A stretch of 51,327 nt of DNA from Heterotrichella gracilis (taxonomy: Eukaryota; Sar; Xanthophyceae; Tribonematales; Xanthonemataceae), in assembly GCA_032358255.1 (NCBI GenBank), contig JAULBX010026186.1:1-51327 (forward strand), given 5' to 3'. Position numbers and translations under genes: made by a program. This document shows, one piece after another, positions 2,561 through 51,327 of the stretch (within the stretch, counting starts at the first letter, position 1; each line of letters starts with the position of its first letter). Under the pieces are notes generated by a model. It had not been told where the DNA came from. It did not search any database and worked only from the letters and a program-made list of their open reading frames with translations.

Positions 2561-5500
2561 ATGGGCAAGCGAAAAGAGCGGGACCCGGATGACCAGCCCC
2601 CGCCCCAGCGGGAAAAGCCCTCCATAGGGCAGCAGACCAGTTACATCAAGAACAAGCTGGTCAGGTCGGAGAAGTACACACAACTGAAGCGCAAGCAGAA
2701 GGTGGGTGGACACTGGGGTACAGGGGTGTCACACCAACCTGGCACACCCTGCGCTGGCAGTGCGCCAAGGTGGCCCCACAAAACCCTGGCACAACCCTGC
2801 TTGCACAGATGTTCTTCCATCCACGCAGTGCTTGCAGTACGCCCAGGGGTGCCTCAACCCTATCTAGCTACTGCACCTAGTCACCCACACAACACCTTGC
2901 TGCATGTCTGGTCCAACCTACCCCATAGGTGGAAGTGTGGACGTGTAGCTGTAGCGGGCTTTACTGCGTTGTCTTGTGGCGTGTGCAGAAAGACAAGCTT
3001 GCCCGGCGCAAGCAGCAGGCCAAGGATGCCATGACAGCAGAGGAGCTGGGGGTGGCGCCGCCCCCCAAGAAGGTCTCAAAGGTGGGTGCCGTAAACCCTA
3101 ATTAAACCCTAAAGTTGAAGTGTAACAGCTGAAGAGCTTGGGCGGCGCTGGCTTCCAAGAAGGTTCCACAGGTGTGTATTGTACCTAGCCATATATACGG
3201 GTGTACGCACCCACACGCATATCAGCCGCACCCAGGCACTGCATCTCCCCTACACGCATACCGACCATCCACTGCGCCCACTGGCGAGAGTAGGTACTCC
3301 CACCGCTGGAAGTGGAGCTACAGGACAGCGCTCCAGCCACTAAATGGCGCTCAGCTAGGCCAACAGCCCATAGCCATCCATCAACAGCATTACCCACACG
3401 ATTCTGGCGTTCCAGGCCACACTCCTCACAGTGCGGTTGTGTGTGTGCAGACGTTGGAGAACACGCGAGAGAAGGATGAGACCATGGTGCAAGAAGGGGA
3501 TGAGGAGGTGGCTGCGGACGAGGAGTTTGACGAGTTTGCGGGTATGCATGTGGGCTTGTCAGTTGACTTGTAGTGGGGTCTATGAGACGTGCTTGGTAAA
3601 GAGGATGTTGGGTGCAGTGCGTTTGATTTGCTTGCCAATTCCACGTGCCTGTACATTTATGCTGCAATGTACCATAGTCATGCTGGTGCATAGGCGCAAG
3701 CGCACACGATGTGGGGGGGTAGTGACCAACATCTTTAAAATTATTGGCCTGATTTGGTGGTGGGTGCAGCATTTACCTGTGACCATGTCAAGTACAGCTG
3801 TTTGGGCGCGCGGGTGCAGTCACAGCACAAAATTCTTGAGCACATGCATGCGGTACAGGACAGTCACATGCTGCTCAACCGCATGCATGGAGACACACTG
3901 AATGCGTTCACATTTAATTGCGTGTGACCACATGCACACAAAAAGTATTGTCTTGTGGAGGTTTGGGCGGGAAACGCACCCACCAGCACTCACCCTGTGC
4001 TGCACTCCGCTGCAGAGCACTTCCAGCGCTCCCGCCCCCCCCAGGTTGCTCATCACCACCTGCTGGCCCCCTAAACCCTAAATTATAAACCCTAAACCCT
4101 CACACCGTTGCAGAGCACTTTCAGCGGTCCCGGCCTCCCAATGTGCTCATCACCACCTGCTACAAGCCGACAGCCATCATGTACCAGTTCCTGGCAGACA
4201 TGATGCAGGTGGGGACGCCGTTCCCATCGAGGGGTTGTTCGATTGCTGGCGATGGAGTCTCTATAGTCAGCAATTACCTGTGTATATAAAGTTTATAGTA
4301 GGGTTTGTATGCTGCACTGCCATCATGTGCTAGTCGTTGTGGCAGACATCATACAGCAGAGGACTGTCAATCAGATCATCTGCGGGTGTGTCATGCATAA
4401 ATGTTGGCCAACTGAGTTGTGTGCCTTGCATAAATGCTGAAAGGATTATCCTCGTCCCCCACCCCAGGTGTTCCCCTGTGCCACCTACTACAAACGCCAG
4501 GGCTACCCGCTCAAGAAGATTGTGCAGTATGCCTCAGCGCGCGATTTCACCGATCTGGTTGTGTTCAACGAGGACCGAAAAACCATCAATGGCATGCTGG
4601 TGGTACACTTGGCTGATGGCCCCACCGCGCGCTTCAGGCTGTCAAACCTGGTGCTCAGCAAGGACATCAAGGTGGGGTTACTAGTGGGGATACTTGCTTA
4701 AATGTTCAGTGGCGGCGACGGTGTTGTGTTGGTGGCATGGCATGGGGGGATGGACGGGGCAATGTCGGTTTTGGTGTAGACTAAGATGCCCATTTGTGAG
4801 GGGTGGTTGATGGTGAGGAATCGAGTCAAATCAATGACCCCACGGTTATCAAAGACACCCACACTACCACCCACCCTCCCCTCTCCCCACCCCACAGAAC
4901 CATGGGCGCCCCTCCTCCCACAAGCCCGAGCTCATCCTTAACAACTTTGGCACACGCCTGGGCCACCGGGTGGGGCGCATGTTTGCCTCCCTGTTCACGC
5001 AGGACCCCACCTTCAAGGGCAGGCGCGCGATCACATTCCACAACCAGCGGGACTTCATATTCTTCAGGTGGGGGGTGGGGTATGGTTCATGCGCTGCTGT
5101 GATGGTGGTGGTGGTGGTCGTGGGTCTCCCATCATGGTGTTCATGTGGGGTGGGGTTCTATGTTTCACGTGCTGTGGTGGTGGTGGTGGTGGTGGTGGTT
5201 CTCCCATCATATATTTCAGGCGGGTAACTGCCATGCAGTGCGGGCTAGTGTGCGCCTGTCGTCTACACCAGCCTTGCCACCTCCCCTCACAAGCCCCTTA
5301 GTGCCTCTTGCTCCCACCCAAGGCACCCCCACTGATATGCCCAAAGCCAATAAAAACCCCACATCCCCCTTCCCCGTTAACCTACCATGCAGCCACACCC
5401 CGCAGGCACCACCGGTACGTGTTTGAGCAGAAGGACAAGAAGGTCAAGGGGGAGAAGAAGGCAAAAAAGGTGGTGCAGGCGAGGCTGCAGGAGCTGGGCC

Positions 5501-6704: not shown

Positions 6705-9700
6705 ATGGCCCACATAGGCTACTACCTGCCTGCCCTCCTCACTCGCACCCCACACCAGCCCCTTTTCATATGCGACAACACCGTCAAGACAGTCTCGCAA
6801 GTTCACAGCCGTGTGGCGTCCCTCAGCGCCGCCCTCGCCACCCAGCTTGACATACAGCCTGGGGATGTAGTGGCGCTGGCAGCACACACCACTGACGCGT
6901 TCCTAGAAGCCCTGCTGGCGGTGGTGGGCGCGGGAGTGCTGGTGGCGCCCCTCAACTGGAGGTGGAGCTTGCAGGAGGCCCAATCAGCCCTTGCCTGCTG
7001 CTCGCCCAAGCTCCTCATCGTGGATGCCAACTGCACCTCCTTCCTCAGCCTCCTGCAGCAGCCAGGCACCACCCTGCAGTCCGCCATCCTCCTGGGCGAG
7101 AAAGTTCCACTCCCCAACCTCCCCCCACCATGGCGCATCCACTCGTCAGAAGCTCTGATCCTCCAGCACCTGGCAGCACCACCCAGGGTCCATCAGGCGC
7201 CCGAGGGCCACGCCATGGTGTGCTTCACCAGCGGGAGCACAGGCAAGCCCAAGGGAGCGCTGCTCTCCCACACCGCCCTCCACGCGCAGTCCATGGCCAA
7301 GCTGCTGGTGGTGGGCTACAGGGGGAGTGACACCTACCTCCACCTGGCCCCGCTGTTCCACATTGGCGGGGTCTCGTCGGCGCTCGCTATGCTGCTGGCG
7401 GGCGCAACGCACGTTTTTCTGCCAAGGTTCACCCCTGCCAGGTGGGTGCCAATGCAGTCACATGGGATGCCTGCGATGCACAATTTCTGAGAAAATTGTA
7501 GACACATTGATATCCCCGGCATGTCGTTGGTACCAACGTGTGGGGGCAGGGATACTTCATGGGATTCCTTTGTTGCGAGATCCCTGAGTAGAAATGGGAG
7601 TTGGTAGCACCAGGGCAGATTTGAGTGGCGCATGATGTTGCAATACCAACTGGTAATCTGACTGGAATGCGTGTAATTTAAGGAACCAAGTGACTAGTTT
7701 CATCGCGGTGCCAGCCATGCTCAGCAACATGCCTGTATTTCCTGGGATGCTTGTAATTGAATACCCAACCCTGCAGGGCTCTGGAGCTCATTGAAGAGCA
7801 CCAAGTGACCAGTTTCATCGCGGTGCCTGCGATGCTCAGCGATATGCTGCGGGTGGGGGGTACGGCAACCAGCCCTGGCGCAGCGGCAGAGTACGGGTCT
7901 GTGCGCACCATCCTGCTGGGCGGGGGCGCGGCTCCCGACGGGGTGTGCGCGGCTGTGCGCCGCCTGTTCCCGCATGCCGCGGTACACACAGCCTATGGCA
8001 TGACAGAGGCGGCGTCCTCTCTCACGTTCCTTCAGCTCATGCCCGGGAGGGACGGCGCTCAGCAAAGGGAGGCGATTACTCCTGGGCAGCCTGTGCCAAG
8101 CAGCAGCAGCAGCGCGGGGGGTGGGGAGGTACAGGGAAACCCTGGTCAAAGGTCCTGTGTGGCAGGGGCACAGGCGAAACTTCCTGATGTGCCTCCCCTA
8201 AGCAAGGCCCAGGCGGAACCCTACCAAGGGTCCTGCGTGGGGCTGCCGATACCTGGATCCCAGCTGGGCGTCCTTGTGGAGGAGGGGGGAGGGGAATGCG
8301 TGGCATTTGAACCCTTTCGGGGGGGCGAGGTGGTGACCCGTGGCCCCCATGTGATGGTGGGGTACAAGGGGGATGCAGCGGCTACCAGCCAGGCCCTCAT
8401 ACCGGGGGGATGGCTGCGCACAGGTGGGTGGTGTAGGGTGTAGGGTTTAGGGTCGTGAGGATGGCTGCGCACAGGTGGGTATGGTGAGGATGGCTGTGGC
8501 ACAGGATGGCTGCCGCACACGTGGGTACCGGAGATGGTAAAAAATCTAATTTTAATCACCTGCATGTGGGTACTGGATTTGGAGTCTGCCATTGTCACCA
8601 CAGGCAACTTTGAGATGATCAAAGCCCTTCCCATGCACGACCACCATGGGTGGGAAGGCCTTCCATCATCTCAAAGTTCCCCTTGACGATGATGATCAAT
8701 TCCAAGTCCAGTAACCATGTGTGTGGCACGCTATCCCACCCACAGCGCCCCAATGCTACGGGCGGGGTGAGGTATGTTTTGGTGGTGGGTGGTGTATCAT
8801 TGGTGTGGTGTGGGTGGGCAACATCTGGCAGTGCCCTAGGTGATGCACATTGTGACCCACAACTTGTGGGCACTACCATGGCCATTCAGATTAAAACCCA
8901 TATATTATTATGCAGTGCTTGCTGTTACGTGTATAACTTGACAAAACCACTTTCAATTGTAGGTTTGGCACCAAAGGGTTTTGAAATAGAAGATAAAGTA
9001 CCACCAGGTGTGTATAGGTGACCTCGGCCCTTGGACCACTAGGACAAGCTTGTGTGATAAAACAAGCAGCAGTAACTACTTGTGAGATCAACAACGATAA
9101 AACACCTCCCAAAAAAATGAATAAAACCCATTTGGCGTGTGTTCAGGCGACCTCGGCTTCTTGGACCGCCAGGGCCGGCTGTGGCTGCAGGGGAGGAGCA
9201 AGGACACGATAAAAAGCGGGGGAGAAAACGTGTTTGCCAGCGAGGTGGAGCGCCTGCTGCTGCGCCTCCTGGGGATTGCCGAAGCAGCGGTGGTGGGGAT
9301 GCCGGACGCCAGGCTTGGTGAGGTGGTGGCTGCTGTTCTGGTTCTGGAGGGGGGGGCTGGGGGTGAGGCTGGTGCCAGCGGCAATGCAGAGACACTAGGG
9401 CAATTAGGAGACCCTCGGGGAAGCAGCACTGGTGTGGTGGAAACCCTAGTGCAGGGCGGCTCCATAGCGAAGGGTTTTGGTGGAACGCTATTGGGCGTGA
9501 CAGGGGATGGGGTGAGCTCATCTGGGGTGCAAGACCCTAGGGTCGGGTTTTCGGTGGGGGGCAGCGCGGCACAGCTGGCGGCGGTGCAGCGGTTCTGCAG
9601 GGTACAGGGCCTGTCCAGCTACAAGGTGCCTCGGGTGGTGTGGTGCCAAACCCAGCCCCTGCCGCGGAATGCGGGCGGGAAGGTGTTGAAGCATGTTGTC

Positions 9701-13213: not shown

Positions 13214-15532
13214 ATGGCCAGCTTTGGGCAAGCGTTCACCCAGGCGGTGCCCGCCGCCGCAAACCACAACCCTAACAAGGATGTCGAAGTGGTATCGCCA
13301 CCCACAGACAGCATCTCCAGCATGTGCTTTAGCCCCTCAGCCAACTATCTGGTAGCCACCTCGTGGGACAACCAAGTGCGGTGTTGGGAGATACAGAGCA
13401 ACGGCGCCTCGGCCCCCAAGGCCGCCATCAGCCACGACCAGCCGGTGCTGTGCAGCGGGTGGAGCGCGGATGGCACCACTGTGTTCTCTGGAGGCTGCGA
13501 CAAGACAGTCAAGATGTAAGCCTTGCTGCACCTGCTAATTTGGGCTCTGCAACTGCCTTTTGTGTCCTGTTGGGTGCTGTACGTGGATCAATGGATGCAA
13601 TGCAGATATGCATGACACACCCTTTGCCCTCAACCTGTGAACCAAGGGAGCGAAGAAGCGGATGCCACCAGATATACAACCACAGCAGCTGCAACTCTTG
13701 CATTCCACGGCCCAGTGTGCGCCTAATCATGGCAGTGGCTCTGTCTTTCCAGTCATCACCCACCTGTGTGGGTGACACGCACGGGGTGCACCACTGCTTG
13801 TTGCTCACCACCCTCCTGTGGGGTCCACCCCTCACAGATTGGATAAAGTGAGCTCAGTGCATCCCAGCAGTGTATCCTGGAAAGCAGGCAGCCTTGCAGA
13901 TTCGACCCCATGCAGTTTTATCATGGCATGGGTACCACGTGCTGGTCTTGCAGGAGCCAAAATCCCTGCTGGGCTCCCCACTCAGCATGAACCAGCACCC
14001 AAAAGTGCCGCCCCACCTCCACCGCTACCACACTGCTACACCACCACACTGCTTCACCAGCATAGTGCATCACCCCAGCCACAGCAATCACCACCAACAA
14101 CCTCATGCGATGCCCGATGCCCCCCACAGGTGGAACCTCCAGACCAACCAGCAGCAGGTGGTGGCCAAGCACGACGGCCCCATCATCCGCCTCAACGTCA
14201 TAGAGAAGATGAACCTGCTAGTCACCGGCTCCTGGGACAAAACCGTGCGCTACTGGGACCTGCGCCAGCCCAACCCGGTGCACACGCAGCAGCTGCCGGA
14301 GCGGGTGTACGCCATGGACGCCACCCACCCGCTGCTGGTGGTGGGCACTGCAGACCGCAACCTGCTTGTGTTCAACCTCAACAGCCCGCAGACGGTGTAC
14401 AAGCAGCTGCAGTCGCCGCTCAAGTACCAGACGCGCACGCTCACGTGCTTCCCAGGTAAACCCTAAACCCTAATTCCTACAAACGCCAGCAGCTTAAAAT
14501 ACCAGACACGCACCCTCACGTGCTTCCCAGGTACGCATACCTGCACCACAACAACATACGCTGGTCCTGAAATCGGCATTGTCGCTTGCCATGTGCTGGC
14601 AGTATCAAGCCATGCGGGGCTGCCTTCACCCAGCTGGATCTCAGATTGCGCAGGATCAGCTAGAATATAGCCAGTGCCAGCGCCGCATTTGCAAGGCTGA
14701 CTGCTCATATGCTTGTCCTGCTGGAAATGCATTTTTCCCCACAGTAACTGAGTGCATGTAACCCACTAACCCACCCTGCCCTTCTCCCCAGACACCACCG
14801 GCTACCTGATTGGGTCCATTGAGGGCCGCGTGGCGGTGCACCACGTGGAGGATGCCAACCAGAGCAAGAACTTCACGTTTAAGTGCCACCGGGATGGGAA
14901 CGACATCTACGCGGTCAACTCGATGAGCTTCCACCCGCAGTATGGCACCTTCACCACCGCAGGTACGGGGGAAAACCCTAAACCCTAAACCCTGAGCGAC
15001 CATCCGCACCCGCAAGAATGGCACCTTCACCATTGCAGTTGAGGGGCAACCTTACATCAGCGTCTACCCTAAACCCCAAACCCTATAGTACCTTCACCAT
15101 TGCTGAGATGCCCAGTGCTGGGGCAGAACTGCTTGGAGCCTACAAAGCAAACTGCTCATGGTTTAGACTCCGCGTGTAGCAAACTGCACCAGGGGCAGCA
15201 AGCCTGCGCCAAAGGCGCAATCTAGTTGCATATTATACAGCCTGCGTGTAGCTAATCCACCCACCCACCCACCACCCGCAGGCTCCGACGGGGCCTACAA
15301 CTTCTGGGACAAGGACAGCAAGCAGCGGCTCAAGGCCATGGCCAAGTGCAGCGCGCCCATCCCCTGCGGCGCCTTCAACCGCGACGGCTCCATCTACGCA
15401 TACGCGGTCAGCTACGACTGGAGCAAGGGCTACTCGGAGTACAACCCCGCCACCATGAAGCACTACATACTGCTGCACTCGCCGCAGGAGCAGGAGGTCA
15501 AGAACCGGGCCAGGGGGACGGCGCGGAGGTGA
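13214..15532 (+). CDS. RAE1: mRNA export factor RAE1 (Gle2), WD40 protein
   Basis: WD40 beta-propeller that binds NUP98 and takes part in mRNA export at the nuclear pore. Four exons, 13214-13515, 14130-14455, 14792-14962 and 15282-15532, give 349 residues. Family markers in order are DSISSMCFSPSANYLVATSW, DNQVRCWEIQ, SHDQPVLCSGW, FSGGCDKTVKMW, NLLVTGSWDKTVRYWD, NPVHTQQLPERVY, VVGTADRNLLVFNL, SPLKYQTRTLTCFP, GSIEGRVAVHH, SKNFTFKCHRDGNDIYAVNS, GSDGAYNFWDKDSKQRLKAM and SIYAYAVSYDWSKG. Length and order fit plant RAE1. The ATG lies in a good context (ACCATGG). Ghost copies of the ends of exons 2 and 3 follow their donors. Confidence 0.96.
14480..14536 (+). repeat. ghost copy of the end of RAE1 exon 2 with donor
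   Basis: Starts about 25 bp after the true donor and repeats the exon end (CAGCTTAAAATACCAGACAC then CTCACGTGCTTCCCAGGTA). The copy keeps a usable donor, GTACGC. Between exon and copy lies CCCTAAACCCTAA. Confidence 0.9.
15001..15110 (+). repeat. two ghost copies of the end of RAE1 exon 3
   Basis: GGCACCTTCACCATTGCAG at 15020-15038, preceded by a matching CCGCACCCGCA, repeats the exon end GGCACCTTCACCACCGCAG. A second, shorter copy, GTACCTTCACCATTGCTGAG, lies at 15088-15107. Each copy is preceded by a CCCTAAACCCTAAA-type tract. Confidence 0.8.
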
Positions 15533-16599
15533 CGCGGGGAGGGGGCAAGGGTGTCGAAGGGCAGGGGGCGGGGAATGGGGATATGGGGGATGCCAGTATT
15601 CTCAGCCTGGGCTCAGAGGAACAGGGCAAGAGGTGGCGTGGGTGTGGACCCTCGCCACTTTGGAGCACTATATGCGGCTGCAACCACTACATGAGGCAGA
15701 GGTAGAGCAGGGCCAGGGGACAGCGCGGAGGAAAAGAGGGGAGGTGGCCAGGGGGGTTGGAGCACAGGGCGAGGCGGGATGAAAAGGAGGTGACCGGGAG
15801 GGGGGAAGGGGGTTGAGGGCTGTCACAGGGCAATGAGGGGAGGCAACCAGGGGGTGGCGGGGGAGCGAGGAGGCGTGTTGTGGAAAACCCTGGGTACGGT
15901 TGGATGTGGTACAACGGGGTGGTGTGGGAGAAAACTTTGTACCACTTGGCGTCTTTCCCACTACCTGGCAGTCTTCACACCACCCTGCACTTTCTGTGCC
16001 TGCCCAATCACAAGGGGACACTGATCTGCTGCCTCATGTGACATGCCTTTGCATTTTGCACACTTTGCAACGCACGATGCCAAGTAAGAACGCATTGACT
16101 GTAACTCATCGCCAGCACCTGCCTCTACTTGAAAGTGCCAACAGCCGTTGCTTAATATGTTGCTATTGGTCTTTTACACAAACGGCAAGTCCAGACCTGC
16201 ATCCAGCTAGCTCGCCTGCAAACGGGTAGGTGCTGCAACCCCTTGCTGGGGCCTACGTGGTACTTGTAGGTACGCACAGGTTGGGATACTCACAAACTGG
16301 TCGTTTTGAAAGTGAAATACCACAGTGACAGTGGTCCTGCGTGGCTGGCTTTACGGCCAGAAGGCACAGTGTGTGTCGCAAGATGCATGCATACACAAGT
16401 ACAGCAAGCACGGGACCGTCGAACGGCAGGGGTACGGGCACATTGTAGCAGCAGCGCTTTGTATTTTACAGAGGTTCACCTCAACACCTATGTTTCCTCT
16501 TTGGTTGCCTTGCGCGCGCGCCTGTGCAAAACAATGTGTTGGCGATGGCGGTGACAGGGGGGGTTAGACTATATGGTCGCCAATAATTGCCAATCCTGC

Positions 16600-16705
16600 C
16601 ACGCAGGTAGACCAGACCGTGACCAGTGGTAGACCAGCAGACCTTTGGTTTAAGAAGACCAGAACCCCAGGTTCGACTCTTGCTGTTGCTGTCTTTCTTT
16701 CTTTC
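16600..16705 (+). mobile_element. possible tRNA-derived SINE relic
   Basis: A box-A-like TGACCAGTGGTAG (16620-16632) and a box-B-like GGTTCGACTC (16670-16679) are spaced about 40 bases apart, as in tRNA-headed SINEs, and are followed by a TTGCTG/TTTC-rich tail. No acceptor stem pairs, so it is not a functional tRNA. No second copy was seen in the window. Confidence 0.25.
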
Positions 16706-16755
16706 AAAAAGTTGCTCTGAAAACAAGGGAAGCACAAGATGACGAGAGGCGAGGC

Positions 16756-16875
16756 GATCAAGGGGTGCTATCCCCGGGAGGAGACCAAGCCCAGGAGTCA
16801 AGGGGCGCAGTCCCCCAGAGGAGACCAAGACCAGGAGTCAAGGGGCACAGTCCCCGGGAGGAGACCAAGACCAGG
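16756..16875 (+). repeat. 40-bp minisatellite, about three units
   Basis: Units at 16779-16818 and 16819-16858, with partial units before and after. Each unit contains AGGAGACCAAG, CCAGGAGTCAAGGGG and CAGTCCCC. It lies between the RAE1 and PRMT7 3' ends and directly follows the SINE-like segment. Confidence 0.85.
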
Positions 16876-16977
16876 CGGTGGACCAAAGGTAAGCAAAGGT
16901 AAGGTTGAAGCTTTTGTCAACACGGGTTGGCATTCGTGCCTTGGCAAGTGAGAAAGACGGCGTAGCGATTGCAAAAA

Positions 16978-16982
16978 TTACA
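16978..16982 (-). terminator. candidate TGTAA polyadenylation signal for PRMT7
   Basis: TTACA on the plus strand, hence TGTAA in the PRMT7 sense, 76 nt past its stop. The spacing is typical for green algae. A short motif, so only suggestive. Confidence 0.35.
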
Positions 16983-36100: not shown

Positions 36101-36911
36101 TAGTGTTGAGCACACACATCTGGGGTAAATAGCCCTGACCCAATGGGTGCACATCGGGTACATGTACATGTGTATCCAAATGTACACAGTGGATTGGATA
36201 TAACCCATCCATTATCTCCCATGAGCGTATTTGCACAAGACCCTGCACACCGGGCGTACCAGTACCCTGCCCCATGCCGCCGTGCATTGACCATCCAACC
36301 TTTGGTGGTGACCCCCTTGCATGTGTGCGGTGCAGGTGACTCTGGCAAGGAGAACCGCGGGGAGGGGCCAGTGGCGCCGCCTGCCGCTGCACCCAGCCTG
36401 GCGTCGCGCTTCAGGGTGGTCAAGGTAGGTGTCTAGGGTCTAAGAAGTAGGGTTCAGGGTTTTGCAGCCACATGCACAGAAACATTCGCCGTCACGGTGA
36501 CTTTTGCACGCTTCAGGGTGGTCAAGGTAGGTGCCCGGCTCTAGGCACACAGTTTCCAGTCATGAGGACGAAGCCCATAACCTAGACACTATACTTCCAA
36601 ATGTGGAGCGTCCTAGTGCGCCACATGCGTTGCCACATGCATGGTCTGCCACATGCACAGCCTTTGCCAAGTGCGCTGCCGCACGCACAAACACATGCGC
36701 CATCAATGCGCATCCACATGCGCATTCCTATGTGCTGCCACGTGCACAGCTACACGCCCCGTAGTCTGTTTCTGTTACCCTGGGCGCTTACCCGTTTGTT
36801 CCCTCCCCTCAGAACCCCGCCCCCGCCCATACCGTCCCCCCCTTGGACAAGAAGCTTGCTCGCAGGCAGCGCATCATGGCAGCAATGGGACTGGCACCGC
36901 TGCAGACCTAG
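33162..36911 (+). CDS. CDCA7: CDCA7-type 4CXXC zinc-finger protein
   Basis: CDCA7 family members pair with the SNF2 remodeller HELLS/DDM1 and support DNA methylation maintenance. Nine exons: 33162-33230, 33494-33844, 33987-34030, 34299-34382, 34828-34966, 35201-35291, 35600-35977, 36336-36424 and 36813-36911. They give 447 residues. The zinc-finger domain runs from GGRVYDSKFGVTCHWCRQKT through ICSSPSC, MCLLNRHGEDMELAVR, DTWVCPPCRGSCGRGCITC and CNCGPCRKK to AGVGNVHDYLVHLQ. The family CHQCRQK is CHWCRQK here. The N-terminus is basic, and an acidic Glu/Pro-rich stretch follows (exon 7). The C-terminus LARRQRIMAAMGLAPLQT is short and basic. Several introns carry copies of exon ends. Confidence 0.92.
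34204..34258 (+). repeat. possible ghost copy of CDCA7 exon 4
   Basis: GACCCTTGACGACCCATCTG within intron 3 resembles AGACCCTTGAGGACCACGCC plus ATCTG of exon 4, about 90 bp downstream. CCTAGAGGACCCTAGAGGAC just before it is a short tandem repeat of the same phrase. Confidence 0.5.
35090..35125 (+). repeat. possible ghost copy of CDCA7 exon 6 start
   Basis: GTGCAGCCTGGCCTTTACCT and the following AAACCTTGATC echo CTGCAGCTTGGCCTGGACCC and GGTGATC at the true acceptor 110 bp later. Short, and degraded. Confidence 0.45.
35347..35398 (+). repeat. ghost copy of CDCA7 exon 6 end with donor
   Basis: GGGGTGGGCAACGTGCACGA followed by CTTTACCTGGTGCACCTGCA and GACAGGTAAG repeats the last 45 bases of exon 6. 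Two inserted bases shift the frame, yet the donor GTAAGG is better than the real GTGAGG. CCCTAGATTAGG lies between exon and copy. Confidence 0.92.
36512..36533 (+). repeat. ghost copy of CDCA7 exon 8 end with donor
   Basis: CGCTTCAGGGTGGTCAAGGT of the exon end is copied, as ACGCTTCAGGGTGGTCAAGG plus TAGGTG, about 100 bp downstream. The match is exact over the exon part, so it is recent. Splicing at either donor would give the same last codons. Confidence 0.88.
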
Positions 36912-38437
36912 GGGCGCCACCCGGGTGGATGGCAATTCTTTACAGTGTTGTGTACTGATAGGAGTCCATAGCAGGGGGTGTGCGGGGTTGGGGGGACCAT
37001 CCATCGGCTATGGGGTCTAGGGGTGAGGAGTAATGGCCTGAGGGCTGGCAGTGATCTGCATATTTTCCACAAACAATCGCAAGTCAACATCATGGTGTGT
37101 CATGATGTGACCTTTTCCCCAAGTGAGACGTATCTATTAGTATTTTACTCTTGGATCAATGCATGTGACAGCCAAGCTACCATGTAGTGGGTGGTAACCA
37201 TGTTGCATGAAGATTACTGACATGGCTGCAGCAGTGGCAACATCTTTAGGGTTTCTTTTTCAGGTTTTAATTCCCAAACCCTAAACCCTAAATATCTTTG
37301 TCACTGCCTGCCATGCACCCACTTGACTTGACAATGCAGTACCACCGCAGGATGGCACCATAGGAAGTAGTCCATAGCAGCAGCACAGGGGCTGTGTTTA
37401 TTGCAGCAGGACACCTGACAATGCCTCACCTGAAGCAGGGGATAATTCCAAATGGTTTCAGCTACCTGGGTTGCGGTGATAGTGGGTGCATAGTGCCACC
37501 AGGCATGGCGCCCATGTGTGTCCCTAGGCAGCCGCTCACGTGAGCAAGGTAGCATTGCACTTGGCTGTGGTTTTGTTTTCTTAGAAGGCTAGTGGGCGAA
37601 GGTCACAACCTGAGTCTTATTGGCACCCGCATCGCATAGGTACCAAAGTTTTACTGCAGGATGGTAGGTGCACGCATACGTGAAATTGGCCAAAATATCA
37701 CCGATAGACTGCAGCTTGTCATGCCAGTCGCTGTCAGCATGTGACACAATGATTGTTGATGGGGTCTACTAGCAGTCACTATCTGCTTTGAAGCATAAAA
37801 TTAAGCTACTGATTTTGCAAAATTTCTTTTTCCACTGCTGCAGCAGGTTGCGCCAACCTTTGTGGCAAGTAGAGCATGCGTTACAAATTGTAGGACCCAG
37901 TCTATTGACCTTAAGCTAGTACTATACGCTGGGCCTAAGGCTTCTCCAGCCTGACGGCGCCACATCCAATGCCCACTGACAGTGTGTCCACAAAACCCTA
38001 AGAGTCTACACGGCAATTAATCCAACCTACCAAAAAAACAACCTTAGCAGGGCTGCGCCTGAGGCTCAAAACTCCTGCCCTGACCCACCCGCCCTGTCTG
38101 GACCTGCCGCAGTGATCCCTCAACCTCAACCGACACCCCAACCCCTCAACCTCGGCCCAAAGCAACCTCCACCCTGGGAGGTGGAAGTGCGCGCCATACC
38201 ATCATAACACCACTGAGAAAAGATTTTAACCGGCGGTTTAACCGGCACCCCTCACTCCATACCCTCAAACAGACGTGAGGGTTGAGGGTGTGAGACGTTG
38301 CGACTGTAGAACAGCGCGCACATGCCCGGGTCAAAGCCACGCACCCGCATCTCCCCACCGCAGCTTAAACCACCCAACCAGGCCCTGCACCCTCACTCCG
38401 TGCGCTCTCAAAACGCCACCCAGAAACCCGGCTCCCT
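36912..38437. other. convergent intergenic region CDCA7 / NFU
   Basis: No supported gene. It includes CCCAAACCCTAAACCCTAAA (37275-37294) and, next to the NFU stop, a decayed copy of the NFU last exon (listed). The remainder shows nothing I can name. Confidence 0.45.
38252..38372 (-). repeat. ghost copy of the NFU gene last exon
   Basis: On the plus strand CTGTAGAACAG, GGGTCAAAGC, ACCCGCATCTCCCCACCG and CTCACTCCATACCCTC match GTGTAGAACAG, GGGTCAAAGC, ACCCGCACCTCCCCGCCG and TTCACTCCATGCCCTC of exon 7, but with different spacing. It lies past the stop, so here the duplication is 3' of the gene. Confidence 0.8.
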
Positions 38438-41400
38438 TCACTCCATGCCCTCGAACACCACCTCCTTGATGTCCGGAAACCTGTCCTTGAGCGCCGCCTT
38501 GATACCCATACTCAGGGGCTTGGGGCCCGTGTAGAACAGGGTGCACAAACCCTTGGTAGGGTCAAAGCTGAGGACCCGCACCTCCCCGCCGTAGTTGGCG
38601 ATGGCGGGCCGCAGCATGTCCATGTGGGAGTCAATGGCAGGGGCGGAGGCGGCCATGTCGATCTTGTCGACCTGCGCGGGGGATTAGGGTTTAGGGTTGA
38701 GGTTAGGGAGATGGGAGGGGATGGGCCGAGGACGAATGGATAGGTCGCCATATGGCAGTATTGGTTCCCAGTGCCTGCCAATATAGCGCTGGTAAGCGCA
38801 AGCTGCACTGCTGGAACGCTTAGTGAGTGGTTGATGAAACTTCACCCTGATAAATATAATATACTTTTATTTCATAATAATGTTGTCATGAATGCAGTCA
38901 GCACTTGACAGTGGTGAATGGACGGAACCGCAAGTAAGCTACTTGTTTTCCACCCCGTACCTGTATGATGTCCTTGAGCTGCTCCCCGAAGGTTGACCTA
39001 AGGCTCCTCTCAATGCCCATGGTCATGGTGGCGGTGGATGAGGGGCAGGTGCCGCACGCACCCTGGAGGCGCAGGAAAATGGTGCCGCTGGTAACCTGCG
39101 GGGGAAAGGGGGGACGTGAGGCAGGGATGCATTGGTAGCCAAAATGCAGCGTGCGTTGCCGGGTAATCATGAACAGCACTCTATACCACCACCACCACCA
39201 CCACTCACACCTTCGCCACCACCTCTATGTTCCCATCCCCACCACCAGTCAAGGAGCAGACCTCCTCCCACAGCCATGATCAGCTCGCCACCAACCCACC
39301 ATCATACCACCATCACCACATCCCACACCCCACCGCCACCCCACGCCAACCACCACACCACATCTCACACCACCCCACACCCCACCGCACCCACCTCCAC
39401 CACCTCCACGTTGCCGCCATCCGCCACCAGGTAGGGCCTGACCTCCTCCAGCGCAGCATCCACGCTCTCCACAGTCATGTCAGGGAACGTCTCAGCCTGC
39501 TCTGCAGAGGCATTGCCCACGGAGCGGTGCACGCTCGCACGGGTGAAGGGGGAGACGATAGGTGCGGGCTCGGGGGTGGCGGGCTCGGGTGGCGGGGTGG
39601 GGAGGGTGGAGGAGGTCTGCGCGTCGATGACTGCCGACCAGTTGTCGCCCTCCACCGCCCGGATCAGGTTCTCGCGGCGCGTCTTGGCGTCCAACTGCGG
39701 GGGCAAAAAAATATCAGCAAATGTCATGAACTTCATAATTGCTGACCAGTTGTCGCCCTCCACTGCCTGGATCAGATTTTTGCGGCGCGTCTTGGCATCC
39801 AACTGCAGGGGCGATGATTTTTAGAGGATGTCACAATTTCAGTATTGCGCATCAGCCCCCCACTACCCTGATCAGGTTCTCGCGGGGCGTCTTGGTGTCC
39901 ATTTGCGGGGCGAAGAAATTCAAAATGCCGCAAAGGTATGTAGTTACTATACCCGTACCGTTTCCCCCTCCACCGCATCCCCCAGGTTCTCCCCCATTGC
40001 CTTGCGCATCTTGAGCTTCTTGTCCTCATACTCCGCCAGCTCAGCGGGTGACATCATGTGGGAGGCCGCAACCTGGCCCTCCCACAGGTCGCGCTCAGAG
40101 CCGTTGCCTGCGAGGGTTTGCGAGTTAGGGTTTAGGGTGACATCAAGACCTTAGGACGGGATAGGGTCTAAGGTTCAACATTCGGCCCTACTGCATACAA
40201 CAGTGGTGCTCATGGAAGCGCACACAGCGATGAAACCGATGCATGCAACGCCAGGATGCATGCGCCAGGCAACACCAGAGCATGGCGATCTTATTTCTGT
40301 TATTTATTTCATTCATTTTCTAAGAACTAATTTAAATTACAAATCCCAATGCTCTGGTGCTTGCCTAGCGGCGTTCTGCCTGCCTCGTCCAGCCAGTTCT
40401 GCGCCTCCCGCTCTAGGCTTATGATGCATGCAGCAGTGCTGCACATGGGAGCCTATGCACGGGCGCAACACCCTTGACGATGCATGCAGCAAATGGGAGC
40501 CCATGCAGCGGTGCAGGGTGCGTAGCAATGCATGCAGCAGTGGATCATACACCACAGATTAATCTTGGTTGTTAAGTGATTTGTTATTCGAATAAATTAA
40601 TCTGTATTAAGTCAAACCTTTGAATAACTGGAACAAAACACGTATTACATTGCTTTAGTTTGAAATAAGTTGACTTGATTGCTGGCGCAGTGTGCTTACC
40701 TGGTGGCGTTGTGCCTGCCTCATCCAGCCAGTTCTGCGCCTCCCGCTCCAGGCTGGTTTTGGTGGCCATGGCGCGGTTGGCAAACACCATCACGCGCACC
40801 CAGCTGCAGTCGTCCTCGCCCACGCGACCCAGGTGGGCCTGCAGGGTAGAACAGGGTGGTGGGAAGTGTGGTGGGATGTGTGATTTGGGGTGTAATGGGG
40901 GGTGTGATGGGGAATGTGGTGGGGAATGTGATGGGTGTCGCGGACGTTTTTACATGTGGCGTGAGGCACCCAGTGTCGCGCACATGGGTGGGCACAATGT
41001 GGCTGTACTTCCAAGGCACAATGTGGCTGTACTTCCAAGGAAGCGTGCATTGCTTCTGGTGCGGTGGCGATAGGGTTTAGGCTTTACCTTGACCGCCAGC
41101 ACCACGTTCCTTGCGTAGCCCACATACTGCAGGTTGCGCTGCGCGTCGTACAGCGCGTACACCCCCGTGGGCTTCTCGTTGTCCCTTGACTCCAGGTACT
41201 CTGGCACAGCCAGCAGCATCGAACCGTCGTCCTCGCCCTGTGGGTGGCACAAAACTAATAAATACATATCTACGCAGCCTGTCCTTGCATGCCTGTAACT
41301 CATAGACTAACTAACTAACTGTCCTTGAACAGGCGCGGTTGGTTAAGGAAGAGGAGGTAGCGAAGAGAAGGGCAGTCCACTGTTTCCCCTACCATAAAAA

Positions 41401-45600: not shown

Positions 45601-48600
45601 TGGCGGTACCTGCCACAAATGAATTGATGTATAAACAATGCAAGGATTTAACTGTTTGGCGCGGCTTGTGCAAAACTGACTGCTAATCTCTCATCTTTTC
45701 TGTCTTAGTACTGGAATGCATGTGACAAAGTCACAATGACCCACGCAGGAGGCATTGCAAGCCCAGCCAAGCAGAGACCTGCACCCCTTTTTCAAGCCCG
45801 GCGCCCAGCTGGGTGCAAATCCCCAGGACTCCCCCTACCCCATCCCCGGCCCGGCACGCGTGGCGCTGCTGGGACACATGCTACCCCCAGTGCACATCAC
45901 ACAGGGTGCGGATCAGCCAGTAGGGGCCGGTTCCACAGTGCCTGACGTGGCCCGTGGTCCAATGGATGCGCGGCGTGGCGGTGACGTGGCAGTGGATGAT
46001 GCCAGGTGGCGCCAGGTCGCGTCCTATGAGGGGGTGCTGATGCGGAGGGATGGCGGTGGAGGGGCGGGGGAGATGCAAGGTGGGGAGCGTGTGCGAAATG
46101 GAAAATGGGACAGTAGGCCAAGGCCCTGTCTTTGAGGTTTGTTCTCACCTGCCAATGACATCACATGGAGGTGGATGAATGATTGCGCTGGGAGAACCCA
46201 TACTGTCACACAGGCTTATCAAAGGAGGTGGGTTACCAAGGAAACAGTGAAGTTGCCGTGATTGTGTTGCACCCTGGGGTCAATCGTATGATTTCCTCTT
46301 GGCATGCCTGCAGGTCCCTGCCCTCCCCCTCATGCCGATGATTTCCTTCTCTCCCTTGCCGCCTACCTGCACCGCCACACCACCCCCCACTCCTCCCACC
46401 AGGTGCGACCCATGAACCATGCACCGTGCAGATACTGACAAGTCGCTGGCTGTGCTTTTTGGCAAAGAACCAAAGTTCACAACTTTAACACGTCACCGCG
46501 ATCCGATCTTTACTCTTTCCACGACACATGCATCCCACCCATCCCATCCCATAATTAGTTACTTACATGCATCCCATCCCATCCTACTCCTTTATCGTAT
46601 ATTCCTGCCAGTCTTTCCACCCCACCCCATCCACCCCTGTGCAGGAGCTTGAGGACCTGCCAAGTGTCGCTGATGTGGCGGATGGCATCCGAGTGGAGGT
46701 GGACCGCCTGCGCCAGTCATGCGCGGGTGACGCCGCTGAGCTGGCGGGCTTGGAGGGGCCCAATGCCGCCATGTGGACAGCGAAATACGAGCCCAAATGC
46801 GCCGAGGAGGTGCGGGGCACAAAGTTGTGCACCAATTGATGAGAGAGGACATGGCATGCCTTTCTCTTTGGTTGGTTTGTAATTCTATGGCGATTCCTGA
46901 CAACCTGAAAAGACTAGCATGCTGAGTACAAATCCTAACCCCCGAGTATGCACGGGCACACAGCTCCACACATCCCCTTCCCCATCCCCAGGTGTGCGGC
47001 AACAGCGCCTCTGTGTCCAAGGTGCACGCCTGGCTGTGCGGGTGGAGGGAGCGCATCGAGGCCAACCAACAGCAGGCAGCGGAGGACAACAACCTCCCTG
47101 CCACCCAGGCCAGGGGGGCCACCTCACGGGGGCCCTCGCGACTGCAGAAGCGGCGCACGCGGGAGGATTCAGACTCAGATGATGACTGGTTTCAGGTGGG
47201 TGGTTGGGGTTTAGGGTCCTGGTTAGGGTTTTGGGTCCTGGCCCCGTGCTGGCTGCTGCCTGATGCAGCGTCAATGTGGGTGTATATAGACAGGCTAGTT
47301 GCTTGAATGTACCTAGGCGAGGGGGCCAACCCGTGGGCCACAATCCTTATACACAAAACCCTAGCAAGTACCCTCAAAACCCTAATTAAAGCCCTAAACC
47401 CTGCAGGACCCACAGCGCCGGCGCCAGAGCCTGGATTCTGACATGCTGGCAGACCACGACCCCCCCGCCTCTGCATCGGTAATACTCCTCCACGCCCCCC
47501 CGGGGGCAGGCAAGACCGCCGCTGTGTATGCCCTAGCCCACCAGCTAGGGTTTAGGTTGCTTGAGATCAACTCCTCGCATGACAGGAGTGGGGCGGCGGT
47601 GCGGGGGGCGGTGCTGGAGGCCACGCAGTCGGCGAGGGTGTCCAGGTGGGGTGTGTGTGTGTAGGGTAAGAGGGAGGGTGCCGGATTGAGGGTATTTCTA
47701 CTTTGCCAGAAATATTGAGAAACATGGTGAAGCTTTATGTTTAGTGATTTCACTTGGCATTCACTGCTAGGTAAGTGTAAGCTACTGTACTCGGGCGGAG
47801 CTGGAGGCCACGCAGTTAATGAGGGTGTCAAGGTGAGGGGTGTGGTGGTGGTTGGTGGGGCACTGGAGGGGTGTTTTGGGTGAGGGAGGGGGGTACCAGG
47901 GAGGAGGGGACGGGACTGGAGACAATGCATGCGGCACTGGTGGGGAGGTGGTGGCGTGGTTGGAAGGAGGGGGTGGTGGAACGTACTGTCTCAAGGTTGA
48001 CACTAAAATTGTGACAGTGAAAACTGTGTCGACCGTAATCATCAGGCGCCTTGGGCAGTGGACTGAGTTTCACTGGATGCAGGTGGTCCCAATCCCAGTC
48101 CCAGCCTGTGCTTGATCCCGGGGGTGGGCCCAGCCAACCCACTGCCCCCAGCCCATTCAACCCCAACCTGGAGGACCACCCTGGCAAAGGTACCCATGTG
48201 CACCACAGTACCTAGACATATCGCATGATGGCGCGTAGTATATATATAATTTTTATGCGCGCCTTGTGCAAATGAGTTTACATCATCGCATTGTACCCCT
48301 GCCGCATGACTGCCGCATTACAAATGCATCCCGCGATGTGATTCAGCAGCTGTACATGAGTTACCAACGGCAATGCACATGCCACTACCAGCGGTAACCA
48401 GCGGGAATTGTGTGCATCGATTCAGGTGGGAAGCGTGGCACTGCCTCCACCCCCGCCCCCAAGCGCTCCGCATTCGCAGCTCTGGGTATTGGCAAGGGGA
48501 GCGCACTGAAGAAGGGGAAACAGGTGGTAATGGAAGCAGAGGAGGGAGGTTCCCAGGCTACATCCTCGCCACCGGTAAGCAACCCTAAACCCTACTTGCC

Positions 48601-51327
48601 AAACCTTTTTTGTCCAGTACTAAAACCCTGCTGGCCATGAAGCTAAGGTGTGAGGCTCCCAGGCGACCTCCTCAGCACCGGAAAGAAACCCTAAACCCTA
48701 ATGATCTTACATTAAATCTGTGCTGTGGTCAACCTAAGAAACAACCCACGGCTTATGTGGCGTGTTCACCCAAATCCGTCCCGAGGCGTGAGTCAGAATG
48801 TCATGCCTGTTAAACCTCTCATTCCTGCTCTTGGCCCCCCAGGATACCCCTCGCCAGACGCAAGGCACCACCCTCACCGCAGTACTCTTTGATGACGTGG
48901 ACATACCCACCTTTATAGCAACGATATGTCCTTGCTTTGACATTTTTGTTCAACCAAAGAACAGCTTGTGGTTACTGTGTGGTGCCTTCACCCAAACGCA
49001 GCTTTAGACAGACCTCTTATTTCCCGCGTTCTGTGCCCCAGGACACCCCCCGCCAGACACAAGGCACCACCCTCACCGCAGTCCTCTTCGATGACGTGGA
49101 CACAATCACAGAGGAGGACCGAGGCTTCGCCACCGCCCTGGCCACGCTGATCAGCGAGTCGAAGCGCCCCCTCATCCTGGTGTCATCCACCCCCTTCCCG
49201 CCCTGCTTGCCCCCTGGACTCAGCTGCCTGACGGTGGCCATGGGGGTGCCGGGGGTGGCTGAGGTGGTGCGGCTGGTGGGGAGTGTGTGTGCGGCGGAGG
49301 GGGCGGTGGGGCTGGGGGTGGAGGGGGTGTGCGCGGTGGTGGAGGCTTGCGGTGGGGACGTGAGGTGCGCGCTGCGGGTGGTGGTTTGCAGTCATATGTG
49401 TGCGCATGCATGCATGAATTGCTGCGCCATTCCTGCCACCACACACACGGCGCGCTATAACCTCACACCCGTTGGTCCTAGGAACAAAGCAACAGAATCC
49501 CGAATAGAGGCCCTTGGGACTCCAAATGCAGTCCCAAAAGGCATCCCTTTCATACATTGCTTTTGTTGTGTTCCTTGCAGGCAAATTACCTTTTATTCAG
49601 TTTGGTGAATACACAGTAATGTTTATTATCTTTGCAATTGATTGTGACTCATCTTGTTGCAGGCAATCGCTGCTCATGGCGCAGTTCTGGTCCCGACCCT
49701 CACCCACCACCACCACCACCATCACCAGCTTCCTTCGGCAACCCTCCACCTCTGGAGCCGCCCTCCACCACCACCTGCACGCCGCCATGGCGACACACCC
49801 CACCGCCCCCACCTCGGAGGGTGGTGGGGGGCCAGGGGATGGTGGTGCTGCCCAGCCGGCGCCAGCCAGGGAGGCTGTGGTGGCTGCTGAGAAGGGGTTG
49901 CGGGTGGTTGAGGAGTATGAGCTGGCGCTGCTCATGCGGCGCTACCAGTCGCACCTGGTGAGGGTTGGGGGGTTGGGGGTGGGGCAGAGTATGCGAGGGG
50001 TTGGGTGGTGGTGGTGGTGGTCAAGGGGGTTAGGTGCATGTGAGGAAAAGGGGTGTTCATGAGCGCTTGCATTGATGCTGTTGTGGGAACACTAGGGGAG
50101 TGACAACATGTATTCTTTCAAGCGTCCCAAGGATCTTGCAACTCACCCATAACGCATCCTGCCATGGACGCATAGGGCCTTCAACCAGCTTTAATGCAGG
50201 AGAACCGCATTCTTTTCTACCAGTGCACCCTACCTGCCTGTTTAGACACTGCCACGCGAGTACTGACCCCTGAGGGTGTCTGTGGTGGGACTATTGACCC
50301 TAGGGTTTGTCTGTGGTGCACCAGGCTGCCAAGGCTGAGCGGCGGGCCAATCGGAAGCGCAGGAGGCGGTCCAGCCTGCTGCCACTTGGCGACGCCACAG
50401 GCCAGGAGGGCACCGTGGGAGCGCAGCCAGACCCCACCAGCCAATCCCCCGACCCGATCGAAACATCATCGCCCGATGATGACCCGATCGAGATGTCTGA
50501 TGACAGCGGGTCCCAGGGGGAGGGTGACAGGGAGGATGATCATTCAGAAGGGGAGGAAAATGTGTCGCCCAGGCAAGGGGTGGCGGGGAGCGATGAGGGG
50601 GAGGGGATGGTAGAGGGCAATTGTGAGGGCTGCGGTGCAGCAGGTGGGTGGTGGTGTGTGGGATGGGGAGCACTTGGGCAAATGTTAGTTGTGAGCATAT
50701 GGCGGTTTACCTGAGTGTGGTGGCAGGCTGTTGCAATTTGTGGAACGTTTACCACACACACATCACGCACACATGATGCTATCCTGGCTGTGCCATTGGA
50801 GCTCCACACACATGATGCTTTTTAGTACCGGGTGGTTCCTATAATAGCCCACATGTGCAGCTCCCTGCCAGCCCACATCCAGTATGTCACCCACATGTGA
50901 GTTATGTGAAGCCACACATCCCATGAACACCCCTTCCCCCATGCAGGTCCCCCTGGCCCAGCAACTTCGCCATCACCACCCCAGGCCACACCCGCCACAG
51001 GCAGCACCGCTCCCGCCAGCACATCACCTGGCACCTCCCCAGATCCCCGTGAAGGGAATATTGACGCCCCCCATCCCAGCACGGCGCCACCTGCCGACCA
51101 ACCCTCCTCCCCACCACCGCCCTCGATCCCAGCTGGCGATGGCTCAGGCGGCCATGGGGGTGCACCTGGGGGGCATGTGACACCGCCGCTCCCACTCCTG
51201 CCCCCATCACAGCTCCATCTCATCCCGCTCAGCCCCGTACCGATGCCGCCGCCGGCGCTGGTGACGCCGTTCGGCGCGGCGCATGCCGCGGGGACCATCC
51301 CGCTGCGCCCGCGGGTGGCGGACGCGG
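42663..51327 (+). CDS. ATAD5: ATAD5/ELG1, PCNA-unloader AAA+ clamp-loader subunit (partial, 3' end outside window)
   Basis: Large subunit of the alternative clamp loader that removes PCNA from replicated DNA. Fourteen exons visible: 42663-42730, 42814-44291, 44662-44867, 45749-46079, 46314-46402, 46645-46809, 46992-47195, 47407-47645, 48152-48189, 48426-48574, 49042-49364, 49663-49957, 50325-50643 and 50947-51327 (open at the edge), at least 1428 codons. The long exon 2 is disordered and Pro/Gly-rich with RVVQMRLPF and VHPFFSGKG; exon 4 has LHPFFKPG. Exon 6 ends MWTAKYEPKCAEEV and exon 7 continues VHAWLCGWR, as in ELG1. Walker A is APPGAGKTAAVYALA (about 877), then LGFRLLEINSSHDRSG. Walker B is AVLFDDVD, then KRPLILVSS. 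GDVR/QSLLMAQFW joins exons 11-12. Exon 9 has two in-frame acceptors (48134 or 48152). Confidence 0.9.
45100..45200. repeat. degenerate CAAAANAGCCC short tandem repeat
   Basis: About eight loose copies of an 11-13 base phrase (AAAACAGCC, AAAATAGCTC, CAAATAGCCCC) in ATAD5 intron 3. Simple repeat, no other content in this 880-bp intron. Confidence 0.75.
47796..47840 (+). repeat. ghost copy of ATAD5 exon 8 end with donor
   Basis: CTGGAGGCCACGCAGTTAAT and GAGGGTGTCAAGGTGAGG repeat CTGGAGGCCACGCAGTCGGC and GAGGGTGTCCAGGTGGGG from the exon end, 183 bp downstream. A TAA stop has arisen, but the donor GTGAGG remains good. Confidence 0.92.
48640..48708 (+). repeat. ghost copy of ATAD5 exon 10 end
   Basis: GAGGCTCCCAGGCGACCTCC and TCAGCACCGGAAAG parallel GAGGTTCCCAGGCTACATCC and TCGCCACCGGTAAG. 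The donor GT is changed to GA, and AACCCTAAACCC follows both the exon and the copy. Confidence 0.88.
48729..48912 (+). repeat. duplicate of ATAD5 exon 11 start (Walker B exon) with acceptor
   Basis: The copy starts after GCCCCCCAG at 48842 and reads in frame DTPRQTQGTTLTAVLFDDVD, identical in protein to the true exon start, with seven or so silent or near-silent base changes. It then departs (IPTFIATIC...) into a frame that stops near 49006. The intron before it is duplicated too (CAACC.AAGAA, TTCACCCAAA), unit about 200 bp. Splicing to it could give a truncated protein. Confidence 0.93.

Follow-up and report, generated by a model that had tools for sequence, protein, structure and literature searches.

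What process leaves degraded copies of exon edges inside the introns of one gene after another? The question is raised by a stretch of 51,327 nucleotides from the xanthophycean alga Heterotrichella gracilis (bases 1-51,327 of contig C368; the assembly comprises 903 contigs and 68.5 Mb), which we call the window. An earlier note, made from the letters of the window alone, had reported that more than twenty intronic segments in nine genes repeat the start or the end of the adjacent exon together with its splice junction. We refer to such an intronic copy as a ghost. The exon-edge phenomenon itself is well supported: in a sample of the genome we observed the copies, their direct orientation, their targeting to exon edges, the symmetry of donors and acceptors and preferred displacements, as well as unrelated spacers, a link to a telomere-like motif, neutral decay on average and variation among genes.

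Besides the window, we sampled the larger contigs with 29 stretches, each 10 kb long, which cover about 0.4% of the genome: 20 were taken from every 18th contig, C5 through C347, and nine more from contigs between C8 and C248. Together the 30 sequences (the window and L002-L030) amounted to 341,327 bases. All exon models were produced by a purpose-written gene finder, trained on the window and L002-L025 and then run on L026-L030; it recovered a clear splice consensus (AG/GTRAG at donors and TGCAG/G at acceptors, with the slash at the border). The gene finder fuses RPF1 with AAE14 and CP12 with PUB-ZZ, and it calls several ghosts exons.

In an exon-anchored test, up to 80 bp of each exon end were aligned to the exon's own intron (introns of at least 100 bp), with the reverse complement of that intron and up to 20 introns from other loci serving as controls. 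There were 806 borders, 763 of them with an exon query of at least 30 bp, and a score of at least 16 was counted as a match. Copies in the own intron were found at 103 of the 763 exon ends, compared to 5 of 763 for the reverse complement and to 0.7-0.8% for unrelated introns; such an alignment of exon borders with their own introns beyond the window, proposed in the earlier note, came out in favor of its claim. The matches were distributed symmetrically between donor ends (53 of 381) and acceptor ends (50 of 382). At scores of at least 18, the homology reached the splice border or stopped at most 8 nt short of it in 36 of 42 donors and 36 of 43 acceptors.

A self-BLAST search of the 341 kb gave 91 non-redundant pairs of near direct repeats (less than 1 kb apart; 133 raw pairs) compared to 6 raw pairs of near inverted repeats. 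The direct pairs occurred on 19 of the 30 sequences, and 11 had none. An ungapped scan over lags of 15-1000 found 298 segments with a score of at least 20 versus 8 at an equal number of control lags. We observed that 61 of the 91 pairs spanned an exon-intron border, while 37.3 ± 4.4 would be expected from random placement in the same locus. Among the 34 pairs with at least 82% identity, 32 had a copy in an exon, with about 17 expected (17.2 by random placement): 23 spanned a border, 9 were exonic otherwise, 1 was intronic and 1 intergenic, compared to expectations of 10.4, 5.5, 9.3, and 7.6, respectively. For the ungapped pairs, the enrichment at borders was seen at shifts of 89-225 (49 of 99 pairs versus 24.2 ± 3.9 expected); it was absent at shifts below 89 (9 of 55 versus 9.5) and not clear above 225 (7 of 25 versus 4.6).

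A bias in detection is unlikely to account for these figures, since implanted mutated copies were recovered about equally, at rates of 78-95%, in exons, introns and intergenic DNA (60 trials in each of nine cells). Thus, the standing mutational process that had been suspected from the window alone is upheld by the excess of direct over inverted pairs, by the exon-edge excess over two controls and by the even detection. The genes varied strongly: 24 of 55 were free of ghosts (overdispersion chi-square of 131 on 54), and at the gene level the ghosts showed no significant correlation with GC3, taken as a proxy of recombination (rho 0.20, p 0.15).

An assembly artefact, for which we found nothing in favor, would have to produce copies that differ by 3-38%, have gene-specific shifts, occur on 19 of 30 sequences and are almost all direct; we give it practically no credence. 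A mixture of two organisms in the assembly was rejected as well, because the event-free L030 and L028 share repeats with L013 and L025. L028 and L025 have in common a 62-bp repeat with 90% identity, and L026 has one match to L003. Since event-free loci share repeats with other sampled loci (L030 with the event-rich L013), a single genome is likely, though not proven. The dispersed repeats seen in the sample include one of 303 bp (95% identity) at L013:2021-2323 (event-rich) and L030:3908-4210 (event-free), with related pieces in L002 and L018. A short one lies at positions 1-77, 14680-14732 and 45652-45734 of the window, at L025:4283-4418 and at L027:8231-8366, the copy at the window start being 91-96% identical to those in L025 and L027.

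Within the window, the self-BLAST (E at most 1e-3) found 17 direct matches, 15 of them less than 1 kb apart, and no inverted ones. At 17 of 140 borders the exon-anchored search detected a duplicate of the exon end within the neighboring intron (score at least 16), where the rate of about 0.8% in unrelated introns leads to a chance expectation of about 1. The 15 BLAST pairs and the 17 exon-anchored matches, 8 of which were treated as identical, were joined by hand into a list of 24 local direct-repeat pairs, 22 of them with an exonic copy. The list extends from 3125 to 49109, and the more than twenty copies noted earlier between 3124 and 49108 are thereby confirmed in number and extent. Ten of the 15 BLAST pairs of the window spanned a border (6.4 ± 1.9 expected); by itself this is not strong, and the border-spanning point rests on the wider sample. 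The pairs are listed below by the position of the ghost or of the pair.

3125..3171, + strand: ghost of the RPF1 exon end 3034-3081; shift 91, score 22.5, equalled by 0 of 20 control introns
4003..4064, + strand: ghost of the RPF1 intron end and exon start 4101-4161; shift 98, 85% identity over 62 bp, spacer of 36 bp with CCCTAAA repeats
4316..4356, + strand: ghost of the RPF1 exon end 4170-4208; shift 146, score 22
7662..7732, + strand: ghost of the AAE14 exon start 7781-7847; shift 114-119, 86% over 58 bp, score 41
8454..8474, + strand: weak ghost of the AAE14 exon end 8403-8423; shift 51, score 17
9020..9054, + strand: weak ghost of the AAE14 exon start 9149-9183; shift 129, score 17
14478..14530, + strand: ghost of the RAE1 exon end 14398-14455; shift 80, score 28.5
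15007..15038, + strand: ghost of the RAE1 exon end 14932-14962; shift 75, score 22.5
15641..15781, + strand: probable ghost of the last RAE1 exon, 15436-15577; shift 205, 71% over 144 bp; both copies called exon, so that the assignment as a ghost is uncertain
17500..17603, - strand: PRMT7 copy paired with 17284-17385; shift 216, 73% over 104 bp; both copies called exon, the assignment being uncertain here too
18133..18198, - strand: ghost of the PRMT7 exon start 18025-18082; shift 108, score 22
18733..18949, - strand: PRMT7 intron-intron pair; shift 93, 69% over 126 bp
25029..25121, + strand: intronic copy in an unnamed gene, matching exon 24631-24706 (shift 398) and exon 25523-25656 (shift 478-487); counted as two pairs
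34215..34249, + strand: weak ghost of the CDCA7 exon start 34307-34335; shift 92, score 18
35349..35440, + strand: ghost of the CDCA7 exon end, donor and intron 35249-35337; shift 100, 84% over 93 bp, ghost and source forming a nearly contiguous tandem
36509..36526, + strand: weak ghost (18 bp) of the CDCA7 exon end 36407-36424; shift 102, score 18
38305..38363, - strand: copy of the NFU last-exon segment 38530-38594, past the gene end; shift 225, 74% over 65 bp
39173..39291, - strand: ghost of the NFU exon end 39355-39472; shift 182, 71% over 125 bp, score 26
39830..39976, - strand: ghost or ghosts of the NFU exon start inside 39647-39801, found by BLAST and by the exon-anchored search; the merged entry (39647-39976) unites two distinct shifts, 107 and 208
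40305..40437, - strand: ghost of the NFU exon end 40643-40777; shift 335-338, 75% over 115 bp, score 46.5
47793..47844, + strand: ghost of the ATAD5 exon end 47606-47657; shift 187, spacer of 135 bp, 85% over 52 bp
48533..48700, + strand: ATAD5 intron-intron pair, 48533-48594 and 48639-48700; shift 106, AACCCTAAACCCTA in both copies
48814..48910, + strand: ghost of the ATAD5 intron end and exon start 49012-49109; shift 198, spacer of 101 bp, 83% over 98 bp

By gene, the border matches were 6 of 22 in the fused RPF1/AAE14, 2 of 6 in RAE1, 3 of 16 in CDCA7, 3 of 12 in NFU, 1 of 27 in PRMT7, 1 of 26 in ATAD5 and 1 of 6 in the unnamed gene at 24-26 kb; the figure for ATAD5 is an underestimate, since the gene finder took one of its ghosts for an exon. 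Therefore, seven of the nine genes named at the outset (RPF1, AAE14, RAE1, PRMT7, CDCA7, NFU and ATAD5) do carry copies. In PUB-ZZ and CP12 the copies did not rise above control: no match at 13 borders, and a lone match of score 14 that was equalled by 1 of 20 control introns. The unnamed gene is affected in addition to those named before. RPS3 and PSRP1, described earlier as having no convincing copy and a doubtful one, had exon-anchored matches at 0 of 6 borders each, in line with that description.

Pfam matches in the window supported RPS3, Brix (RPF1), AMP-binding (AAE14), S30AE (PSRP1), WD40 (RAE1), CP12, PUB/WW/ZZ, a CDCA7-type zinc finger and NifU, as well as, weakly, PRMT7. The unnamed gene and the ATAD5 fragment (whose query was erroneous at its start) had no Pfam match. 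The labels ATAD5, RAE1, PRMT7, AAE14 and CDCA7 are taken from the earlier note; they are consistent with the data, and no search result bears those names. The top-scoring homologs of NFU were 55-59% identical over 86-94% of the query (120 of 241 matches listed). The named ones among these top-scoring homologs include those of Myrmecia bisecta, Ostreobium and Bryopsis; among the matches listed, a few reach 65% identity, over less than half of the query. Judging from NFU alone, it looks as if no close relative has an entry in the protein database. No RNA genes were found in the window at Rfam gathering scores, and no tRNAs. Two exons of the unnamed gene (24080-26213) resemble one intronic stretch, as if an exon had been multiplied. 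Tandem arrays were seen at 16758-16875 (40 bp x 3), 28334-28471 (33 bp x 4.2) and 40991-41040 (24 bp x 2.1).

The distances between the copies were distributed unevenly. Among 179 ungapped events, 57 had shifts below 90, 43 fell at 90-119, 20 at 120-179, 30 at 180-209, and 29 were spread over 210-1000. The 103 exon-anchored matches repeated both peaks (36 at 90-119, 17 at 120-179, 22 at 180-209), and only 21 of the 74 BLAST pairs with shifts of 90-209 were located in the middle half of this range, 120-179 (p 2.6e-4). We conclude that two displacement classes, at about 100 and about 196 bp, are likely, though not certain. The earlier note had also described a decay of copies graded with distance from the true exon; this did not hold across the 91 pairs, which come from different events (identity versus shift, rho -0.08, p 0.46).

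The copies of the BLAST pairs measured from 28 to over 150 bp, and in 64 of the 91 pairs they were separated by a spacer of at least 15 bp, the length of which was negatively correlated with that of the copy (rho -0.48). The remaining 27 pairs were contiguous, 16 of them with a shift of 89-112 bp. The ghosts had been described as direct tandem duplications across the border; this stands for the contiguous pairs and not for those with spacers, mostly unlike the flanks. A true tandem predicts a spacer matching the sequence past one of the copies, and plain tandem duplication is thus rejected as an account of all pairs: spacers resembled a flank (p<0.05) in 9 of 64 cases, with 6.4 expected. Among the 17 pairs that had a spacer of 15 bp or longer and an identity of 85% or higher, a flank homologue was present in 2 and absent in 15 (p<0.05). 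The p floor of this test is coarse (about 0.01-0.05), and for the handful of longest spacers the controls were too scarce for it to be informative. A later loss of the second spacer was judged too slow, as most would probably have to be deleted with the ghost still over 85% identical. A hidden middle copy within the spacer (8 of 57 at p<0.05) would explain some arrays and not the general case. Capture of the spacer from elsewhere was not supported either: 3 of 3 spacers searched in the assembly matched only themselves, in a search that skips very common words.

A broader version of the tandem account does not require exon-edge targeting. Short tandem duplications could arise everywhere, the exon-internal ones being purged and the border-crossing ones remaining recognisable longer because one copy is constrained. 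The 27 contiguous pairs, the neutral decay of ghosts on average and one border-crossing case reported for potato (PMC4974935) all fit. On the other hand, only 2 of 34 young pairs were intron-only or intergenic, compared to about 17 expected at similar detection power; the gain in persistence, as computed from divergence rates, is merely about 1.3-fold; and the 15 of 17 young spacers lacking a flank homologue argue against it. We consider this account unlikely.

The layout of copy, spacer and copy in 64 of 91 pairs, with spacers mostly unlike the flanks, would also suit introner-like mobile elements, in which the spacer would be the element and the copies a very long target-site duplication. 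However, similarity between loci (BLAST, E at most 1e-5) covered only 1,932 of the 341,327 bases and 0.8% of the intron bases, and the three spacers searched had no other match in the genome. The copies are also far longer than the duplications of 3-9 bp given for introners in PMC9860276. Introner families or other mobile elements are thus unsupported in the 30 sequences, a small sample that rare families could escape, and we regard this origin as very improbable. No ghost had a shift within 6 nt of the intron length (0 of 85, score at least 18), so that no new intron of unit length was seen.

The introns are rich in a telomere-like motif. Ranked by frequency, the top six 7-mers of the introns are all rotations of the telomere repeat, with counts of 226 for AAACCCT and 224 for AACCCTA in 154,587. 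We found (CCCTAAA)n near the start of eight contigs, at base 138 in one and no more than 7 bases in for the other seven, compared to 0 for the reversed control; TTTAGGG/CCCTAAA is thus the genome's own telomere repeat. Telomere-like bases made up 2.95% of introns, 1.24% of intergenic DNA, 0.41% of exons and 0.39% of Markov sequence, and the intronic content was about seven-fold over expectation, with exact tracts of up to 41 bp. Pooled over all introns, the motif peaked 12-42 nt inside both intron ends, mostly as CCCTAAA at acceptors and in both senses at donors. Since CTAA resembles a branch point, the motif might act as an element of splicing. In C109, C120, C187, C217, C346 and others we saw exact (CCCTAAA)n tracts of at least 38 bp, perhaps contig-internal.

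The density of the motif was correlated with that of ghosts (rho 0.82 by locus, 0.76 with exon-only queries, and 0.64 over 55 genes), compared to -0.24 over the 55 genes for the control motif TGCATGC. TGCATGC/GCATGCA is itself the second abundant intronic motif of the 30 sequences, uncorrelated with ghosts. Between the true border and the ghost, the motif made up 13.4%, compared to 5.1% at matching distances from borders that lack a ghost in that gene or locus; the ratio is 2.64 (CI 1.86-3.96, 77 ghosts). It was enriched in introns without BLAST events too (2.44%). A subtelomeric location as such was rejected on one locus: L026, 10-20 kb from the telomere-repeat start of C140, had no events and 0 of 23 exon-anchored matches.

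In 75 pairs, exon and ghost differed less at codon positions 1 and 2 (0.134) than at position 3 (0.229) or in the intron part (0.215), which is the pattern predicted when an unconstrained copy faces a constrained exon. Of 95 gap runs in the exonic part, 78 had a length not divisible by three. On average, therefore, the ghosts decay neutrally.

We propose a standing process at exon edges. The DNA at an exon-intron border would occasionally be re-copied in the same orientation, leaving in the adjacent intron a duplicate of the exon edge that usually includes between a few and some tens of intron bases. The distance is most often about 100 or about 196 bp. Most pairs have an intervening spacer that resembles neither flank and is enriched in the telomere motif of this genome. 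Splicing would remove the extra copy with the intron, and it would hence be tolerated; being spliced out, the ghost would decay largely unconstrained and the true exon would stay conserved. The trigger may be a break or a stalled replication fork close to the exon edge; its repair would involve backward template switching over distances comparable to an Okazaki fragment or a nucleosome, sometimes with telomeric or other filler. We give this explanation an even chance of being right. It might even amount to a distinct pathway, in which exon edges are hotspots of repair or replication, re-copying moves into the intron in single or double steps of about 98 bp and brings in telomere-like filler, and introns grow largely from their own exons; this stronger form we put forward tentatively and with more doubt than belief.

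Several points weigh against the proposed process. The exons are predictions of our own gene finder, and the steps of the mechanism are ones that we infer. For spacer-bearing pairs alone, the gap between the two displacements is less clear (16 of 54 at 120-179, compared to 21.3 with shuffled lengths, P 0.06). The motif is equally enriched just past the ghost border (ratio 2.53); L030 has a motif-rich gene or genes without ghosts (one gene with 0 of 8), and a motif-poor gene in L014 has 6 of 28. The orientation expected from outward telomerase healing is absent at donors (239 versus 235 bases), and at acceptors (253 versus 82 bases) the needs of splicing account for it equally well. The unsplit data (386 versus 72 bases) had looked supportive of outward healing, which was rejected at donors after the split into donors and acceptors.

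These orientations bear on another possibility, that breaks at exon ends were healed by telomerase and rejoined later, the tracts being scars and the duplicates a by-product. The missing bias at donors, the enrichment of the motif in introns without BLAST events and its possible role as a splicing element with a branch-point-like CTAA all speak against it. It would account for a motif that peaks inside both intron ends, tracks the ghosts and is the genome's own telomere repeat, and telomeric repeats in break repair have a precedent (PMC2246262) and reportedly a second one (PMC7215372). We see only a slender chance for this scenario.

Also weighing against the proposed process, with its neutral ghosts, are the younger pairs. 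In those at least 85% identical, mismatches were found at 64 of 386 third positions (0.166) compared to 38 of 772 first and second positions (0.049), an excess above the two-fold limit for a neutral ghost. Ghost acceptors kept AG in 19 of 20 cases (13.4 expected) and ghost donors kept GT in 21 of 31 (18.9 expected), together 40 of 51 (p 0.03), a count that alignment trimming biases toward kept sites. Some ghosts may thus have been used for a time. Taken further, ghosts could be functional, as decoy or alternative exons serving splicing control, a view to which the large third-position excess, the retained AG and the gene finder's reading of several ghosts as exons lend weight. Conversely, 78 of 95 exonic gap runs break the frame, the overall divergence is that of a neutral copy with no coding constraint on average, the AG retention is subject to the trimming bias just mentioned, and the position of the ghost differs among genes. 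Function as a general explanation appears to us quite improbable.

Elsewhere, the growth of introns and the origin of their sequence are mostly untraceable, because the sources decay. Here about one in eight splice borders still shows its source, at many ages, and since a conserved exon faces a free copy, a built-in clock allows the growth of introns to be dated directly. Taken together, the exon-edge targeting, both displacement classes and the association with the telomere motif suggest a route of repair or replication new to the papers found. For annotation, caution is due, as a gene finder can mistake ghosts for real exons, which ours did. The two preferred displacements, the telomere-like link and the strong variation among genes had all been missed in the earlier note. 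Among the top results of searches in the open-licence PMC literature, no paper described exon-edge copies in introns genome-wide; nor did we find there the recurrence of the copies, their architecture with spacers, the two displacements or the link to the telomere motif.

Several known systems share single features with the ghosts. In Drosophila, 5 of 31 novel intron positions, inside coding exons, were assigned to tandem duplication of proto-splice sites (PMC2891723). There, too, a local exon duplicate becomes intronic, whereas here existing introns appear to grow. Introners are repeat families, some with short target duplications, common in aquatic lineages and linked to nucleosomes (PMC9860276); they likewise add DNA to genes in mass, but no repeat family was found in our sample. 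The direct repeats of 4-30 bp near splice sites that were obtained by comparing 5' and 3' border regions (PMC11782384) also surround intron borders, while the exon-edge copies described here lie deep within the intron.

Interstitial telomeric sequences at repaired breaks in mammals were proposed to be scars of repair (PMC2246262). Short tracts of the own telomere motif inside chromosomes occur here as well, but they peak at intron ends and associate with exon-edge copies, and their insertion would be our reading of this pattern. A second mammalian study (PMC7215372) reportedly describes insertion of the telomere motif at repaired breaks. For FEN1/rad27 mutants, small inverted triplications were described, with duplications of a median 148 bp and breakpoints at nucleosome midpoints (PMC13334657), and template switching was reported in rad27 mutants (PMC5677150). 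The segments duplicated there are similarly of nucleosome or Okazaki scale with short spacers; they are inverted, however, while ours are direct and linked to exons.

Closest in form is intron gain by tandem duplication, of which a border-crossing example was described as a single case in potato (PMC4974935). The likeness lies in a direct duplication over the intron-exon border with the splice signals included. The differences are that no unit-length new intron is seen here (0 of 85), that a contiguous unit is seen in 27 of 91 pairs and a spacer in 64 of 91, and that the duplication recurs at about 13% of the tested borders with two preferred shifts.

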